Shown here piece after piece: positions 412 to 29,599 of a DNA stretch of 33,767 nt (position 1 is its first letter; each line of letters opens with the position of its first letter). Below the pieces are notes generated by a model. The model saw nothing but the letters and a program-made list of their open reading frames with translations, ran no database searches and was not told the DNA's origin. The stretch is taken from assembly GCA_009843785.1 (NCBI GenBank), contig VYCT01000195.1, positions 1-33,767 of the forward strand. The letters run 5' to 3'. Both the position numbers and the translations under genes were made by a program. This DNA is from Candidatus Poribacteria bacterium (lineage in GTDB: Bacteria; Poribacteria; WGA-4E; WGA-3G).

Positions 412-3400
412 ATGGTAGAAAACGATGTTCAACTGATTCGCAGAATCTTATCAGGCGACGACGCAGCATTTAGTGTTTTGGTCCAGAAATACCAAAAGAA
501 CGTTCACGCGCTTGTGTGGCGGAAGATTGGGGATTTCCATATTGCTGAAGAGATTACGCAAGACACCTTCCTCCGAGTCTACAAAAGCCTCGCTACGCTT
601 AAAAATCCCAACCTGTTTGCTGGGTGGCTTTATGTCATCGCAAATCGGCTTTGCATTAATTGGAGCCAAAAAAACGGCCCGGCGATGCAATCCTTAGAAA
701 ACACACCGATGGAAGAGATAGAGCGATCTTCCTATGCGCATTATCTATCAGAACAACGCGAGGTAAAAGCCGCCGATCATCACGGCGAAACCGTCCAAAA
801 ACTGCTTCAGAAATTGCCGGAGAGTGAACGCACAGTAGTGACATTGTACTATCTCGGTGAAATGACAGCGAAGGAGATTGGCAATTTCTTAGGGGTGTCA
901 GTGAACACGATTAAGAGTCGGATTCGCCGGGCGAAAAAGCGTTTGCAGAACGAAGAAGAACTCTTAATTAGCAAAACGCTTGGGAGTGTTCAATTACCTG
1001 TCAACCTAACCGAGCGCATCATGCAAGAAGTTGCCAACATAAAACAGACATCCGCTCCGGTTGCGAAACCGTTGCTACCGTGGGCGGCGTTTGGTGCAGC
1101 TGCAGTTTTGGTGATATTGCTTCTCGGTGTCAGCAATCAATACCTCGCCCGTTTCCAGAAACCGTATAGTTTTGAGGCACAATCTGAACCTACGATTGAA
1201 ATTGTTGATGCACCTATGACGCTTGAGATTGACGCGAAACCGGCTGTGCGAAATCAGGCTGGACGTGCTTTTATCCCTAATGAAAATGAGGGGAACGGTT
1301 TACAAACTTCTGAAACAGTCTCACCAACCGATACGCTGGAAATTTCTCCTAAGTTTTCGACTTCACAATGGACTCAGGCAGATGGGCCTCAAGGCGGTAC
1401 CGCCCTTGACATCTTCGCTACACCTGAAAAGACCCTTTATGCCGTTACACCTTCAGGTATCTACAGATCGACAGCAGATGAGACTGCGTGGACGCTCACT
1501 GACACCAGTGTTCCAATTGGTGCATCACGAATGCCTATGGCAGCGTCCGAGGAGACTCTCTATATTGTCTCTGCTGATGCAGTGTTTACTTCAACCGATG
1601 CTGGCGGGACATGGAACGTGCTTTGCCCTCGCCCCAAAGGACATGCTATTGGGTTGATAATAGTAGATGAAACGCAAGGGCACAGTTCACAAACACATCC
1701 AGCAATGTATCTCGCCCTTAAAAATAAAGGTGTTTTCCGCTCTACCGATGCTGGTGCACAATGGACACTTCTTAACGATGGATTGACAGACAAAAGCGTT
1801 TCGGCAGTGGCTGCAATCGGGAACACGGTGTTTGCTGGAACAAGCAGCGGACTCTATCGCCTCACTTCAGGGGCTTGGGAACAATTATCTGTTGCTGCCT
1901 CCGAAGTTATTCATTCTTTAGTGGCACATGAAAACAACCTCTATATCGTGACGGGGCACGATCTTTTTACCTTCGGACTGCTTGAATCAAGGTTAAAGGA
2001 TGCGGGGCAAATAGTGCGCGGTTACAACGCGAGTTCAAGTAGAATTTTCTATTCGACCGATTTGGGAGCGTCGTGGACTGAGATAACACCGAAAAATAAG
2101 TCTCCGTTTGTGAGAACACCAATGGGTATGCAGCTTATAGTTGCCGGTGAGACACTCTTACTGTTGGGTGTTGCTGAATTGCGTTCAACGGATGGCGGGC
2201 AAACTTGGACAGACCTCGGATTCGATAGAAATCTATTTACGTTGGGCAACTTTTCAACTGTAGCGATAGATGAGCATACGTTTTACAACGTTAGTGCCTC
2301 CGGTGTCTATCGAACAACCGATGGTGGTGAATCGTGGCAACCCTTTATGAACGGAATGGCAGGGACCAGAATGCAGGATTTAGTGGCGTTCAATGACAGA
2401 CTCTACATGCACACCGGCAGCGATGTTTTCCAATCAACCGATGTGGGCACATCGTGGAAAAACGTTCCGATTAATTCTGGTGGGGTCACGCTTCAATCGG
2501 TAAAAGCAAAACAACCTCAAAGCAACTTCTCGCTCGATTCAAGATTGATAGTTGCGGACAACACTCTCTATGGAATTATACCCGATGAAGATGACCTACG
2601 CGTTTTTCATTTGTCTCTCAATAGCGATATGTTCGTCCCTGTTCATAGGATTCCCTCTTTCGCGAGGCGATCATCTGCCTTTAATGTGTTCACAGGAAAA
2701 GGATTAGCCTTTGAGGTATGGACCAGCGTTGAAGAGGTAGAACCGGTTCACTCGTCCGATGGTCACCAAGAAAACGATAGTGTACCTGTCACGTTGTATT
2801 TTAAGAAAAAACATTGGGGCGCTGGCGGGTTCGCTGTCAGCGGTGAGACGTTCTACATGGAGTGCCAGCGAAGGCTTTTCAGATGGGAACCGGGCAGCGC
2901 CGAATGGAAAAACACCGGATTGATTGATACGACCGAGCAGCTTGACAACACATCCGATCATGGGTTCAAATTAGCCGCTTCAGCAAAAACCGTCTATGTG
3001 GGCAAACGCGACGGTAAACTCTTTCAGTCGCTTGATGCTGGAGACAGTTGGAAAAATATCACGTCAAGTCTACCACTTCATTTTACCCGTTTCAACGAAA
3101 TCGTGTTCGTAGGTGCAACGGTTTACGTCGCAACTGATATGGGGGTCTTATCCTCACAAAATGGAGAACATTGGCGCATAATAACAGATAGAATAGGTGC
3201 CTGTCCCATCATAGACAGATTCGCTGTAGATGACACTACAGTTTACGGTGCCGCGGATACCGGTATCTATCGCTTGGAAGGTGAATGGCAACAGATTTCT
3301 CCAGAAGCCCCGGGTAAAGTCGTATCTCTCATCGTTAGCAATGACAGACTTTATATTGCTACCGAACAGCGCGGCCTATTTCACATCTCGCTCGAAACAG

Positions 3401-3426
3401 AAGCGTGGGTAGGCGTGATGAAATAA
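412..3426 (+). CDS. ECF sigma-70 factor fused through a TM helix to an Asp-box (BNR-like) beta-propeller
   Basis: The 1004-aa protein has three parts. Residues about 18-86 are an ECF region 2 (AEEITQDTFLRVYKSL, then FAGWLYVIANRL). Residues about 127-178 are region 4 with a helix-turn-helix (AKEIGNFLGVSVNTIKSR). A hydrophobic segment at about 222-242 follows, then a low-complexity linker to about 315. The remaining roughly 680 residues hold repeated Asp-box motifs: STDAGGTW (394), STDAGAQW (444), STDLGASW (548), STDGGQTW (592), TTDGGESW (635), STDVGTSW (675) and SLDAGDSW further on, typical of sialidase/sortilin/YCF48-like propellers. The start ATG has GGAG at 401-404. If the TM is used, the sigma domain is cytoplasmic and the propeller periplasmic, which would suit direct sensing without a separate anti-sigma factor; that mechanism is inference. 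ECF factors are normally about 180-200 aa, so this is a fusion. No frameshift was seen. Confidence 0.88.
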   Translation: MVENDVQLIRRILSGDDAAFSVLVQKYQKNVHALVWRKIGDFHIAEEITQDTFLRVYKSLATLKNPNLFAGWLYVIANRLCINWSQKNGPAMQSLENTPMEEIERSSYAHYLSEQREVKAADHHGETVQKLLQKLPESERTVVTLYYLGEMTAKEIGNFLGVSVNTIKSRIRRAKKRLQNEEELLISKTLGSVQLPVNLTERIMQEVANIKQTSAPVAKPLLPWAAFGAAAVLVILLLGVSNQYLARFQKPYSFEAQSEPTIEIVDAPMTLEIDAKPAVRNQAGRAFIPNENEGNGLQTSETVSPTDTLEISPKFSTSQWTQADGPQGGTALDIFATPEKTLYAVTPSGIYRSTADETAWTLTDTSVPIGASRMPMAASEETLYIVSADAVFTSTDAGGTWNVLCPRPKGHAIGLIIVDETQGHSSQTHPAMYLALKNKGVFRSTDAGAQWTLLNDGLTDKSVSAVAAIGNTVFAGTSSGLYRLTSGAWEQLSVAASEVIHSLVAHENNLYIVTGHDLFTFGLLESRLKDAGQIVRGYNASSSRIFYSTDLGASWTEITPKNKSPFVRTPMGMQLIVAGETLLLLGVAELRSTDGGQTWTDLGFDRNLFTLGNFSTVAIDEHTFYNVSASGVYRTTDGGESWQPFMNGMAGTRMQDLVAFNDRLYMHTGSDVFQSTDVGTSWKNVPINSGGVTLQSVKAKQPQSNFSLDSRLIVADNTLYGIIPDEDDLRVFHLSLNSDMFVPVHRIPSFARRSSAFNVFTGKGLAFEVWTSVEEVEPVHSSDGHQENDSVPVTLYFKKKHWGAGGFAVSGETFYMECQRRLFRWEPGSAEWKNTGLIDTTEQLDNTSDHGFKLAASAKTVYVGKRDGKLFQSLDAGDSWKNITSSLPLHFTRFNEIVFVGATVYVATDMGVLSSQNGEHWRIITDRIGACPIIDRFAVDDTTVYGAADTGIYRLEGEWQQISPEAPGKVVSLIVSNDRLYIATEQRGLFHISLETEAWVGVMK

Positions 3427-17732: not shown

Positions 17733-17761
17733 TTGACTTGTTCCCCAGTTGATGCTATAAT
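17733..17761 (+). promoter_or_regulatory. Strong sigma70-type promoter reading into the IsrB element
   Basis: -35 TTGACT (17733-17738), a 17-bp spacer and a perfect -10 TATAAT (17756-17761). The predicted start at about 17768 is about 33-37 nt before the first hairpin of the insertion element. A transcript would carry flanking DNA at its 5' end and then the RNA scaffold. It may originally have served the gene now at 19063. Confidence 0.65.
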
Positions 17762-17800
17762 TTTCCTAACATCACAAGGAACCGAAAGGAACATCGGTCA

Positions 17801-18004
17801 ATAACCCCCGACTGAAGTTGGGGCTTGTGCGAAGCGTATACCAAACGTTCACTCCACAAGGTAAACCGTTGACTACAGTAAAATATCGCAGTATCTCAGC
17901 GTGGTAGTTCAAACGACGTTTCGGATGCTCCCCAAGTCTGATTCTTCTTGGATACTGTGATCTGGAAGGGGCAACATATACCCCGTAAGGGAGAAGACAA
18001 ACTT
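17801..18004 (+). ncRNA. Candidate omega-RNA scaffold of the IsrB element
   Basis: About 200 nt of non-coding, structured sequence lie directly upstream of the nuclease start, where IscB/IsrB systems encode their guide RNA. Visible pairings are the CCCCGAC/GTTGGGG hairpin (17806-17823), CTTGTG (17824-17829) with CACAAG (17855-17860), and GGGG (17969-17972) with CCCC (17981-17984). In characterised IscB/IsrB systems the guide is the 5' portion taken from DNA flanking the left end; here that would be about 17780-17800. The RNA assignment follows from position, lack of a sensible ORF and pairing; no covariance was tested. Confidence 0.55.
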
Positions 18005-19033
18005 ATGTTTGTGCCTGTTAAAACCAAAGACGGACAACACCTCATGCCTACGCACGCCGCACGCGCCAGAAAACTCGTCAAGCGTGGCGAAGCAACGCCT
18101 TACTTCAATAATGGCATATATTGTATCCGTCTGAACAAAGAACCCTCTGATAGGGATACACAAGAGATTGCTGTTGGGGTTGACCCCGGTAGCAAGAAAG
18201 AGGGCTTTACCGTCAAATCGGCAGCACACACCTACTTCAATGTGCAAGCAGACGCACATAATCAAGTCGGCAAGAAAGTCGCAAAGCGTCGCGAGTTGCG
18301 TAGAAGTAGACGTTCACGGAAATGTCCGAACCGCAAGCAGAGAACCAACCGTCTCGCGAACAAAGTGCGTATCCCTGCTGGCACCCGCGCCCGCTGGGAC
18401 TGGAAACTTCGCATCCTTGATTGGTTCTCAAAGCTGTTCCCTGTGACACATGTTTGTGTTGAGGACATCAAAGCAAGAACCATAGCAGATGCCAAGAAGT
18501 GGAATACCTCTTTTAGTCCACTTGAAGTTGGCAAACAGTGGTTCTATAGTGAAGTTTGTAAGAAATGGGAGTTGCTAACACTTCAAGGCTACGAAACGAA
18601 AGAGATTCGTGATAAACTCGGACTCAAGAAATCATCGAAGAAGTCATCTGAAGGCTTTGAAGCACATTGTGTCGATAGTTGGTGCTTGGCACATTATACT
18701 GTCGGTGGCGATAGCAGTGTAGACAACACAGAAGTAATGTGTATATCACCGATCCCTATAGCGAGACGTAATCTGCATAGAGAACAATACAAAAAGGGGG
18801 GCATTCGTTCAAGATATGGGGGCACTGTGCTGTGTGAGGGTTTGGTCAAGAACACCCTTGTTAAGCATATCACATACGGCTTAACAAGGTTAGCAGGGAT
18901 CAACGCGAAAGGTTTGTTTGCTCTCTACAGCTTGGATGGAAAACGACTCACAACAAGTGCGAAACGTATGGACTTCAAAGTCCTAAGAAAATTAAACTTT
19001 AATTATAGGATCGGGCATGCCTCCCCCAGCTAA
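18005..19033 (+). CDS. isrB: IsrB-type RNA-guided RuvC nuclease (IscB-like, no HNH domain)
   Basis: The 342-aa protein follows the IscB/IsrB domain order. An N-terminal PLMP domain (MFVPVKTKDGQHLMPTHAAR, then ARKLVKRGEA) is followed by RuvC-I (VGVDPGSKK, D60), an Arg-rich bridge helix (KRRELRRSRRSRKCPNRK, 94-111), RuvC-II (VCVEDIKART, E153) and RuvC-III (HCVDSWCLA, H221 and D224). A C-terminal domain has RRNLH, RSRYGGT (268-274) and DGKRLTTSAK. Only about 65 residues separate RuvC-II and RuvC-III, with no HNH motif, which distinguishes IsrB from IscB. All RuvC acidic residues are present, so it is probably active; characterised IsrB nicks DNA under omega-RNA guidance. The frame opens at 17948, but the ATG at 18005 begins the conserved domain and has GGGAG at 17989-17993. 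The stop codon lies inside the right-end hairpin. Confidence 0.88.
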   Translation: MFVPVKTKDGQHLMPTHAARARKLVKRGEATPYFNNGIYCIRLNKEPSDRDTQEIAVGVDPGSKKEGFTVKSAAHTYFNVQADAHNQVGKKVAKRRELRRSRRSRKCPNRKQRTNRLANKVRIPAGTRARWDWKLRILDWFSKLFPVTHVCVEDIKARTIADAKKWNTSFSPLEVGKQWFYSEVCKKWELLTLQGYETKEIRDKLGLKKSSKKSSEGFEAHCVDSWCLAHYTVGGDSSVDNTEVMCISPIPIARRNLHREQYKKGGIRSRYGGTVLCEGLVKNTLVKHITYGLTRLAGINAKGLFALYSLDGKRLTTSAKRMDFKVLRKLNFNYRIGHASPS

Positions 19034-19062
19034 AGCAAGGGGTATCCTGCCCGAATATTTTG

Positions 19063-19785
19063 ATGAATTGTCTTGATTATGGACTCTCTTTTATTAACAC
19101 CGTTGGCAACGGGAATGCTCCGCGCTTTTGGGTCGAATCGCGATGCCGCATCATAGATAACACAGATGGAAGTTTCAACGATTATTACCAATGTGGTTCG
19201 TGTAAGAGTGAACACACCTTTGCGGAGAAAAATCTCTTCATAAATCCAAACTATGACTTTCTCCCTGTTTTTGGCAAAGCACATATAGCCGTATTTAGGA
19301 GGCATGCTTACTGTAACGATAACTACGTTGAGTATAGACCGGCACAGGACTATTGGGGAGGTCCCTTGTTTGATGTTCAAGAGGCATCGCCGGTCCAGGT
19401 CCTTGATAGCAACGCAGCCATTCTTGAGGCGACCCAAAAACGTCTACCCATCGTAACGCACACAGAAATATGGGATACCCATACAGATCAGCGGGCGATT
19501 ATCGAGTATCCGGTTAAAACAATGAACATAGATGAAAACGCGGGCATCTACCAAGTTGATACAGGGATTGTGCTATTTCCAGATCTGTCAAAGCGATATG
19601 ATCGGCAGATTGAGATGTTCAGCCTCGCCTACGTTGCTTTCAACGCACCGCACTTCGCTGACTTCGTTATCGAACGCCCCACCACCATCGTTGAAAACGG
19701 CGCAGAAGTTACCCAAGTTTACCACTATTCCGAAATTCGGAGTCTAAAAGCAAAGAATACCGTGTTCTGCATTGGTGAACTCTAA
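19063..19785 (+). CDS. Hypothetical protein, unrecognised, directly downstream of the IsrB element
   Basis: I do not recognise this protein of about 240 aa. It is soluble, acidic and rich in aromatic residues, with no signal peptide or TM. Visible features are a CGSC motif near residue 43 (YQCGSCKSEH), PRFWVESRCRIIDN near the start and a beta-rich C-terminal half (IIEYPVKTMNIDE, GIVLFPDLSKRYDRQIE). A TTG at 19060 or the ATG at 19063 may be the start; neither has a close ribosome binding site. The right hairpin of the IsrB element ends about 8 bp earlier. A promoter and an AAAGGA site lie on the far side of the element, so the insertion may have cut the gene from its own promoter or removed its first codons. 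Confidence 0.6.
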   Translation: MNCLDYGLSFINTVGNGNAPRFWVESRCRIIDNTDGSFNDYYQCGSCKSEHTFAEKNLFINPNYDFLPVFGKAHIAVFRRHAYCNDNYVEYRPAQDYWGGPLFDVQEASPVQVLDSNAAILEATQKRLPIVTHTEIWDTHTDQRAIIEYPVKTMNIDENAGIYQVDTGIVLFPDLSKRYDRQIEMFSLAYVAFNAPHFADFVIERPTTIVENGAEVTQVYHYSEIRSLKAKNTVFCIGEL

Positions 19786-27640: not shown

Positions 27641-29509
27641 CTATCTTTTCTCTCTCAGGTGTTCACCCGGTACCTTCCACAGAAGAATCGTGCTATCGTT
27701 ACTTCCGCTGGCAAGTGTCCTTCCATCTGGACTAAACGCTACGCAATTGACAACACCGGTATGCCCTGTTCGGATAGTTGTGTGCTTGCCAGTGGTTATG
27801 TCCGATATGTAAACCTCCATCCAACTCCCACTCGCAATTGTTTGTCCATCCGGACTAAATGCGATGGTGTAGATCCACTTCGGATGCTCTGGAAAGGTTA
27901 GTAAGCGTTCGCCAGTGGTAACATTCCATAATCGGATTTTTTCGTCGCCACCGGCACTCGCGAGCACCGACCTATTTGGCGAAAAAGCGACGGAGGTCAC
28001 TGAATGCGCATGTCCTATAAGGCGTGTTGCAACCTTGCCTGGGCGTGTATCCCATAACCGAATCACATTTTCATCCGTTGCGACAGCGAGCGTATACCCG
28101 TCTGGACTGAGTGAAATACTCGGTTTTTTCGTAAGACTCTCAGTAAAAGTTCGTAGAAGTTTTCCAGTGCGTACATCCCAGAGACGGATTGTCTTATCCC
28201 GACTACTGCTCACAAGTGTACTACCATCCGAAAAATAATCAAGAGAAGATACTCCGTCCTTATGTCCCGTGAGCGTTTTCAGGAGTTCACCTGTCTGGAC
28301 ATCCCACAAGCGGATTTCGCTATCTCCTGTAGCAAGCGTTTCCCCATCTGGCGAATACGCCACAGCACCGATGTAGTCTGATCCTGTGAGCGTTTTCAAG
28401 AGTTCGCCTGTCTGGATATGCCACAAACGAATCTTACCCTTTGCACTGCCTGCAGCAAGCGTTTTGCCATCCGGCGAATACGTCACAGAGCTAATGTAGG
28501 TTGTATGTCCGGTGATGGTTTTCAGGAGTTCGCCGGTGTCTGCGTTCCAGAAACGAATCGTTCTGTCATGACTCCCGCTGGCAAGCGTTTTGCCATCTGG
28601 TGAGTATTTTACAGATCGGACGTAAGCCGTATGTCCAATAAGCGTTCTCAGATGTTTACCGGTATGTGGATCCCAAAGCCGGATTGTGTTGTCTAAACCC
28701 GCACTAGCAAGCGTTGCGCCATCTATTGAATACGCGAGAGAAAAAACGATCCCTGTATGCCCAACGAGCGTTTTTAGGAGTTGTCCAGTCCGGACATCCC
28801 AAAACCGAATTTTGCCATCCTGTCCACCACTGGCAAGTGTCAAACTATCAGCGGAATAGACGATGCTATAAATATCTTCCGGATGCTCAGTAATAGTTTG
28901 GCGTAAGGCACCAGTTTGTATATCCCACAAGCGAATCGTATTATCATTTCTGGCACCGACACTCGCAAGCATCTTTCCATTGGGTGAATATGCTAACGAC
29001 TTGATGTTGCCAGTATGTCCTGCGAAGGTTCGCAGCACTTTGCCTGTGTGTGTATCCCACAACTTAATTGTGGTATCACTGCTCCCACTCGCGAGGGTTT
29101 CGCCAGTTGGACTGAATGCTACTGAATAAACACCGCGTGTGTGTCCCGCGAGAATACCTTTCTGATGCCTCGTGTCTGGATCCAACAGGCATATGTTTTT
29201 GTCCTTCGCAACAGCAAGTGTTTTTCCATCAGGACTGAACGCCAGCGCATTGACATCCCATGTATCCCCTGCAAGCAGGTCAATTTCTTCTCCAGTGTGT
29301 GCGTCATAGATCCAGATACCAATGGAACTCTTGACAGCGAGTCGGGTGCCATCTGGAAAATATGTCAATTCTCCCACACTGCCTTTCCCAAATCGGGCTA
29401 TAGCCCCGTCAGGCAGTCCCCATCGAGTATAATCTTCGGCAAAGCTATTTGATAGCGACAGCAGTGAAAAGAGGCTTATCAGAATTGTAAGCAGACTTAG
29501 ATTTATCAC
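27641..29509 (-). CDS. Exported WD40-repeat beta-propeller protein A
   Basis: The roughly 622-aa protein begins with a signal peptide (about 1-24, INLSLLTILISLFSLLSLSNSFA). A cap conserved among its neighbours follows (EDYTRWGLPDGAIARFGKG, then LTYFPDGTRLAVKSSIGIWIYD). The rest is WD40 repeats with the pattern GHT-xxV-xSVAFSPDGKTLASGS-DxTIRLWD-xxTG; I count about 14, enough for two seven-bladed propellers. No enzymatic or kinase domain is attached. Such propellers act as interaction scaffolds, and here the place of action should be outside the inner membrane. A TTG lies 18 bp further upstream, but the GTG at 29509 is preferred because AAGGAGA precedes it by about 8 nt. The upstream gap to the next WD40 gene is 473 bp, so it is probably transcribed separately. 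Confidence 0.88.
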   Translation of the reverse strand: MINLSLLTILISLFSLLSLSNSFAEDYTRWGLPDGAIARFGKGSVGELTYFPDGTRLAVKSSIGIWIYDAHTGEEIDLLAGDTWDVNALAFSPDGKTLAVAKDKNICLLDPDTRHQKGILAGHTRGVYSVAFSPTGETLASGSSDTTIKLWDTHTGKVLRTFAGHTGNIKSLAYSPNGKMLASVGARNDNTIRLWDIQTGALRQTITEHPEDIYSIVYSADSLTLASGGQDGKIRFWDVRTGQLLKTLVGHTGIVFSLAYSIDGATLASAGLDNTIRLWDPHTGKHLRTLIGHTAYVRSVKYSPDGKTLASGSHDRTIRFWNADTGELLKTITGHTTYISSVTYSPDGKTLAAGSAKGKIRLWHIQTGELLKTLTGSDYIGAVAYSPDGETLATGDSEIRLWDVQTGELLKTLTGHKDGVSSLDYFSDGSTLVSSSRDKTIRLWDVRTGKLLRTFTESLTKKPSISLSPDGYTLAVATDENVIRLWDTRPGKVATRLIGHAHSVTSVAFSPNRSVLASAGGDEKIRLWNVTTGERLLTFPEHPKWIYTIAFSPDGQTIASGSWMEVYISDITTGKHTTIRTGHTGVVNCVAFSPDGRTLASGSNDSTILLWKVPGEHLREKR

Positions 29510-29599
29510 GGTCAATTCTCCTTGCAAGTTATCTCATGAATGGACTGTAGGATCTTTTGCACGGAGATCGCATCCGACAAAATAATATTCAGGAGATAA

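Follow-up and report, generated by a model that had tools for sequence, protein, structure and literature searches.

A nonautonomous IS200/IS605-type element coding for IsrB and an omega-RNA in Candidatus Poribacteria, with a proposed homing mechanism

We analyzed a stretch of 33,767 nucleotides (nt), the window, which is part of contig C224 in the 6.17-Mb draft genome G000 of Candidatus Poribacteria, a sponge-type bacterium. At positions 17797 to 19062 the window carries a 1266-bp element that codes for IsrB, an RNA-guided protein without an HNH domain, directly preceded by an omega-RNA. We read this as a nonautonomous IS200/IS605-type element that encodes both an IsrB nickase and its omega-RNA, with a proposed mechanism of movement by the transposase TnpA in trans and retention by homing, and give this reading a probability of about 80%. 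By comparison between genomes we showed the ends of the element, its empty sites, the arrangement of guide and target-adjacent motif (TAM), the RNA fold, the conservation of the catalytic residues, and the ends it has in common with IS605 elements; from these we infer its transcription, the action of TnpA in trans, nicking, and homing.

RESULTS

Precise ends of the element and its host locus

We looked in 60 relatives for the host junctions of five G000 copies of the element. The window site was uninterrupted in at least 10 of the 60, for example reading AAGGAAAATCA and directly on, across the junction, into ATGAATTG. Judged by the relatives' empty sites, the insertions made no target duplication, and on this basis we set the ends at 17797 and 19062. 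An initial annotation of the window, made from the sequence alone, had placed the element at 17801 to 19056, and these coordinates are corrected here.

17797 to 17800, plus strand: left terminus GTCA, invariant by the alignment of copies, third base C.
19012 to 19053, plus strand: right-end nested hairpin, outer stem CGGGCA/TGCCCG, inner hairpin with a CTAAAG loop.
19054 to 19062, plus strand: right-terminal AATATTTTG, the last bases of the element, from the relatives' empty sites.
19063 to 19066, plus strand: ATGA, the retained target, predicted TAM, and start codon of the host gene.
19063 to 19785, plus strand: host gene of 240 amino acids (aa) without a Pfam match, its 5' leader interrupted by the element.

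The left ends of element copies are GTCA or TTCA, and their right ends consist of a nested hairpin and then a short tail. In the window, the isrB stop codon sits within the inner hairpin, and on the minus strand the whole hairpin is an IS605-type left end. The minus-strand TCAT at 19063 to 19066 is the presumed TnpA target. The element therefore has the IS200/IS605 traits of subterminal hairpins, insertion 3' of a fixed tetranucleotide, and no target duplication. There is no Y1 transposase (TnpA) inside it, and for this reason we class it only as a nonautonomous relative of IS200/IS605.

The protein is an HNH-less IsrB

18005 to 19033, plus strand: isrB, 342 aa, with PLMP, RuvC I (D60), bridge helix, RuvC II (E153), RuvC III (H221 and D224), and a TAM-interacting domain with R314 and T317.

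The isrB open reading frame (ORF) begins with ATG at 18005 and stops with TAA at 19031 to 19033. Its product matched Pfam RRXRR (E = 2.6e-31), and its top solved relative was the IsrB of Desulfovirgula thermocuniculi (DtIsrB; PDB 8dmb), with an E value of 6.3e-30 for the single sequence and of 4.2e-43, over residues 3 to 328, for the family profile. An AlphaFold model built with 37 Poribacteria sequences served only as support through a fold search, in which DtIsrB was again the first match (E = 1.4e-17). The catalytic residues D60, E153, H221, and D224 were identical in all 86 aligned rows (the window plus 85 loci, one of which is the window itself), which span 57 to 100% pairwise identity. 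The LMP of the PLMP motif falls at residues 13 to 15, the bridge helix RELRRSRRSRK is rich in arginine, and RSRYGGT is present.

Domain-model searches found no HNH domain, and neither these nor searches of solved structures gave a match to the TnpB family. The NCBIfam IscB model NF040563 scored 89.8 bits against a cutoff of 175 and covered residues 5 to 156 only. Intact copies were uniformly HNH-less in length (334 to 356 aa). By every defining feature examined, these comparisons support the identification of the window protein as IsrB, and its homology to DtIsrB suggests a potential to nick the nontarget strand. The initial annotation had named an HNH-less IsrB with the same four residues at the same positions, a PLMP-type N terminus, an Arg-rich bridge helix, and RSRYGGT, all of which hold; the gap from E153 to H221, given there as about 65 residues and too short for an HNH domain, measures 68. 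It had also called the system intact, which universal catalytic residues and precise ends with empty sites in relatives support.

A conserved HEARO-like omega-RNA precedes isrB

17797 to 18004, plus strand: omega-RNA scaffold, HEARO-like, 208 nt, from Rfam alignment and comparative structure.
17840 to 17843, plus strand: loop ACCA of stem-loop 2 (SL2), 5' arm of the adaptor pseudoknot, from the 50-copy structure.
17902 to 17905, plus strand: SL4 loop TGGT, 3' arm of the adaptor pseudoknot, from the 50-copy structure.
17930 to 17933, plus strand: SL5 loop CCCC, 5' arm of the nexus pseudoknot, from the 50-copy structure.
17968 to 17971, plus strand: GGGG, 3' arm of the nexus pseudoknot, before the last hairpin, from the 50-copy structure.
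17987 to 17993, plus strand: Shine-Dalgarno-like purine stretch of isrB, inside the 3'-terminal SL7-like hairpin.

The Rfam family HEARO (RF02033) aligned over its full length at 17797 to 18006 on the right strand (26.2 bits, E = 0.0057). Neither the window RNA nor any Poribacteria copy scored reached the Rfam gathering score of 83, and a relaxed search and a covariance model of our own were therefore needed. We scored the structure on an alignment of 50 upstream regions, and the resulting model has eight stems, two pseudoknots, and 54 pairs, with 92.1% of cells paired. Two-sided changes occurred in 27 of the 54 pairs, and covariation was 0.324, versus 0.134 in shuffles and at most 0.087 in slid controls. 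Since the single-sequence fold of the window RNA was unremarkable (z = -1.57), the evidence for this RNA is comparative. The structured stretch of about 200 nt noticed initially upstream of isrB is thus borne out as a 208-nt HEARO-like RNA, conserved with compensatory changes in 50 copies. A best match to TnpB or IscB, or an unconserved RNA, had been named beforehand as evidence against the IsrB assignment; the best match was DtIsrB, and the RNA is conserved.

The pseudoknot pairs were picked after viewing the alignment, and their counts are descriptive. The outer pair of the adaptor pseudoknot (48:142) was G-C in 29 sequences, A-U in 18, and G-U in 3, and the nexus pseudoknot was 99.5% paired and near-invariant and hence gives little covariation evidence. 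An SL2-SL4 adaptor pseudoknot is of the CsIsrB, K2IsrB, and BbIsrB type, whereas DtIsrB uses SL2-SL5; DtIsrB likewise has its Shine-Dalgarno sequence within the last omega-RNA hairpin (PMC9581776). As a separate observation, the L023 and L044 omega-RNAs have in common an extra ~26 nt, CTTTGCGAATGCCACACGCGCATTCG, after the guide-adaptor region (alignment columns 91 to 115).

Predicted guide, empty sites, and probable self-avoidance

17777 to 17796, plus strand: predicted guide, 20 nt of the host left flank, which in the relatives' empty sites runs directly into the ATGA start codon.

The guide of DtIsrB is 20 nt long (PMC9581776). By analogy, we predict that the 20 host bases immediately before the element (17777 to 17796) serve as the guide and that the ATGA at 19063 is the TAM; the predicted guide contains the Shine-Dalgarno region of the host gene, AAAGGAA. 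For another copy, L002, the empty site in L097 shows full identity across the 28 nt that precede the junction, extending into the gene beyond it, and the 20-nt guide plus ATGA would be a perfect target there. In the occupied state, the bases after the guide are GTCA rather than a TAM, and this is why the occupied site would be spared. The genome has no second target (guide plus ATGA) within 3 mismatches.

Two residues covary with the TAM

DtIsrB has the TAM NTGA; its R323 reads TAM base 3 and its Q326 base 4, and a Q326R mutant accepts G4 (PMC9581776). In the profile alignment these residues are equivalent to R314 and T317 of the window protein, with the residue numbering of the DtIsrB fusion chain deduced in this analysis. 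We counted TAMs in 124 unique copies, reading the right end by its nested-hairpin anchor. A regular-expression reading of the right ends had misassigned several TAMs and was superseded by this one.

Copies with R314 and T317 had ATGA in 42 cases, GTGA in 8, and ATAA in 1, and those with R314 and Q317 had ATGA (39 copies); with R314 and either Thr or Gln at 317, the flank was ATGA or GTGA in 89 of 90 readable copies. R314 with R317 went with ATGG (8 copies; ATGA in 1, plus one misanchored row), Q314 with Leu or Phe at 317 went with ATAA (8 copies), and Q314 with R317 went with ATAG (2 copies). The remaining rows were unreadable or of doubtful residue alignment. The exceptions to the pairing are L073 and L209, of which L209 reads ambiguously.

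In a tree made without the TAM-residue columns, each residue changed about four times. Misanchored L170 and three doubtful KQRP-type rows were removed by eye before this test. Across three supported independent pairs per trait, base 3 always switched with its residue, and base 4 did so in 2.9 of 3 pairs (mean over random pairings). Because three pairs cannot reach significance in a sign test, the code is consistent, with independent events short of proof. Insertion flanks and empty sites point to an NTG(R)-type TAM on the 3' side of the target matched by the guide. In the code we propose, which covaries across copies, Arg at 314 would read G3 and Gln A3, and Arg at 317 would read G4, whereas Thr, Gln, Leu, and Phe go with A4.

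Elements sit at gene starts behind promoter-like sequence

Of the 51 junctions in a first set, 18 coincided with the first start codon of an ORF at least 80 aa long, versus 117 of 3014 equivalent sites. In a larger set, a gene start followed within 60 nt for 56 of 92 NTGR insertions (directly at the junction for 51) versus 8.1%, and for 5 of 11 NTAR insertions versus 7.6%. A gene start within 60 nt downstream had the same direction as the element in 60 of 101 insertions and the opposite direction in 1 of 101. NTAR elements are informative because their target cannot overlap a start codon; their result and the 60-to-1 orientation led us to reject chance overlap of ATGA with start codons as the whole cause of the siting. 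Selection against insertions inside genes may contribute.

17733 to 17761, plus strand: promoter-like site TTGACT-17-TATAAT (11/12) in host DNA directly upstream of the guide.

Across the family, promoter-like scores in the 110 nt preceding the left end exceeded those found further upstream (P = 2e-9) and those on the other strand (P = 1.6e-4). These patterns suggest that elements persist where a host promoter would transcribe guide, omega-RNA, and isrB together. We found no report of IsrB in Poribacteria or at start codons in the literature searched, of which coverage was incomplete; this fits the initial statement that the lineage has no characterized member.

IS605 parentage

G000 carries seven genes for Y1 transposases, some of them accompanied by tnpB. 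When the ATAA-type isrB element L076 is read on the minus strand, its right end is identical at 52 of 55 positions to the left end of L131, a same-genus tnpA-tnpB element, with the target TTAT included (z about 14). The window right end is like L091 of its own genome at 39 of 57 positions (z = 8). Because the ends match the left ends of IS605 tnpA-tnpB elements, isrB is coded antisense to the transposon (tnpA) direction; it follows that the TAM of isrB and the TnpA target are reverse complements and that its guide comes from the right flank of the transposon. For TnpB, the TAM equals the TnpA target (PMC11870625). By this analogy the IsrB element follows the logic of TnpB in mirror image, with the TAM 3' and the guide 5' in IsrB and the TAM 5' and the guide 3' in TnpB. 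Mobilization by TnpA in trans is likely, and the mobilizing transposase would be assigned by the similarity of the ends (39/57 to L091). In one further case (L032/L127), an IsrB element has inserted precisely where the start codon lies in an IS605 tnpA gene, of which L091 is the uninterrupted form.

Copies and relatives

Seven full IsrB copies are present in G000, six of them 65 to 74% identical to that of the window. The same genome holds a C-terminal isrB remnant (L008) and a second remnant, L150 (G000:C88:536-743), in which the genome's strongest omega-RNA match is followed by the first isrB residues, MFVPVKSKSGW, and then by unrelated sequence. L158 (G000:C135:5665-5912, minus strand), a compact element, has a complete omega-RNA and both ends without isrB; it lies at the start codon of an apparent ammonium transporter gene and is a candidate trans-acting solo omega-RNA. 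The RRXRR family occurs in most same-genus relatives, with up to 18 matches in one genome, longer IscB-type proteins included. Some longer RRXRR proteins, in open frames of 405 to 662 aa, occur in related genomes; in the same-genus G004, G006, and G010 such frames measure 407 to 662 aa, and their products are probably full IscB beside the IsrB radiation.

Proposed mechanism and its alternatives

In the mechanism that we propose, a Y1 TnpA acting in trans would peel the element out as a single strand and insert it on the 3' side of TCAT; seen on the isrB strand, the insertion point would lie immediately ahead of ATGA, in most cases at a host start codon. A transcript from the host promoter would then cross the last ~20 host bases, which become the guide, the omega-RNA, and isrB. 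IsrB with this RNA would recognize the resealed or sister empty site by the guide match and then the TAM ATGA, and a RuvC nick in the nontarget strand would favor copying the element back.

Several points weigh against this account. Among the tnpA loci read, none belonged to an element with the exact TCAT-type ends of the window element. In other species, the empty sites of the window locus carry between one and several mismatches to the guide. Truncated relatives (L010, L020, and L041) exist beside the remnants L008 and L150. The structure model is of low confidence, with a mean predicted local distance difference test score (pLDDT) of 55.9, although its best fold match is nonetheless an IsrB. 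Homing by a nickase is also less established than homing by the double-strand cutters TnpB and IscB.

IsrB and its omega-RNA might instead be kept mainly as a regulator, with the ribonucleoprotein binding or nicking a translation start to control the host gene rather than to retain the element. Guides do overlap Shine-Dalgarno and start regions, because the elements sit at start codons, and the solo omega-RNA at the ammonium-transporter start codon would suit such a role. All four RuvC residues are invariant, however, the insertion sites are unrelated genes, and the guide has no second close target in the occupied genome, and we regard regulation as an improbable main function. Somewhat less probable still is a passenger relic, an IS605-derived element that TnpA still moves and whose IsrB has no present function. 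Truncated copies and remnants are what a relic would leave, but the catalytic residues are unchanged down to 57% identity, the RNA pairs are maintained by compensatory change, and the TAM-reading residues track the TAM. A shortened IscB with recent loss of HNH, or a TnpB, in place of a true IsrB is very unlikely, for while Pfam RRXRR is common to IscB and longer RRXRR proteins occur in related genomes, the best full-length match by sequence and fold is DtIsrB, the family is of uniform HNH-less length, and no HNH or TnpB domain was found.

Besides homing of a nonautonomous element, a broader proposal stands at about even odds in our judgment. Poribacteria IsrB would form a self-consistent natural set of TAM specificities that two residues determine and that keep pace with the transposase target. 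The elements would make use of host 5' leaders: since the guide is encoded outside the element, on its 5' side, they would be maintained only where transcription from a host promoter runs through the flank, before genes of the same direction; solo omega-RNAs would use IsrB in trans.

Other genes of the window

Two large repeat proteins are encoded elsewhere in the window. One, of 628 aa (27641 to 29527, minus strand), consists almost entirely of WD40 repeats, in 11 stretches. The other, of 1004 aa (412 to 3426), has N-terminal sigma-70 regions 2 and 4 joined to Sortilin/BNR-type propeller repeats.

DISCUSSION

The window system resembles DtIsrB in its domain order, length of about 350 aa, lack of HNH, aligned catalytic residues, omega-RNA directly 5' with the Shine-Dalgarno sequence in the last hairpin, NTGA-type TAM, and an Arg reading TAM base 3 (PMC9581776). 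It differs in sequence (~28% identity), in omega-RNA length (208 nt versus a 262-nt scaffold), in the adaptor pseudoknot, and in having T317 where DtIsrB has Q326. Its RNA is like HEARO in full-length structural alignment, place, and strand, and unlike it in scoring far below gathering. With IS605 tnpA-tnpB elements (L091, L129, and L131) it has in common the nested-hairpin left end and the target position; unlike them, it has neither tnpA nor tnpB, and isrB runs antisense to tnpA. With IscB (e.g., OgeuIscB, PDB 7xht) it has in common PLMP, a split RuvC, a 5'-guide omega-RNA, and a related TAM space, whereas IscB also contains HNH and cleaves the two strands of its target.

IscB and Cas9 are held to descend from IsrB, whose service to its transposon has, to our knowledge, hardly been studied. 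The kind of system found here is already known; what is new is the lineage, apparently uncharacterized, and the family-level regularities. Beyond the initial annotation, the analysis adds the exact ends, guide and TAM, start-codon siting, IS605 parentage, and six other full copies. The four TAM types (ATGA, ATGG, ATAA, and ATAG) could serve as compact nickases. In Poribacteria, genomes carry numerous intact copies, with ends now mapped and empty sites at hand, and the TAM variants form a natural series that tracks two residues. Two questions thereby become open to direct test: what a nickase-only IsrB does for its element, and how its TAM preference is kept matched to the transposase target. 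The siting at start codons suggests how a guide coded outside the element becomes transcribed.
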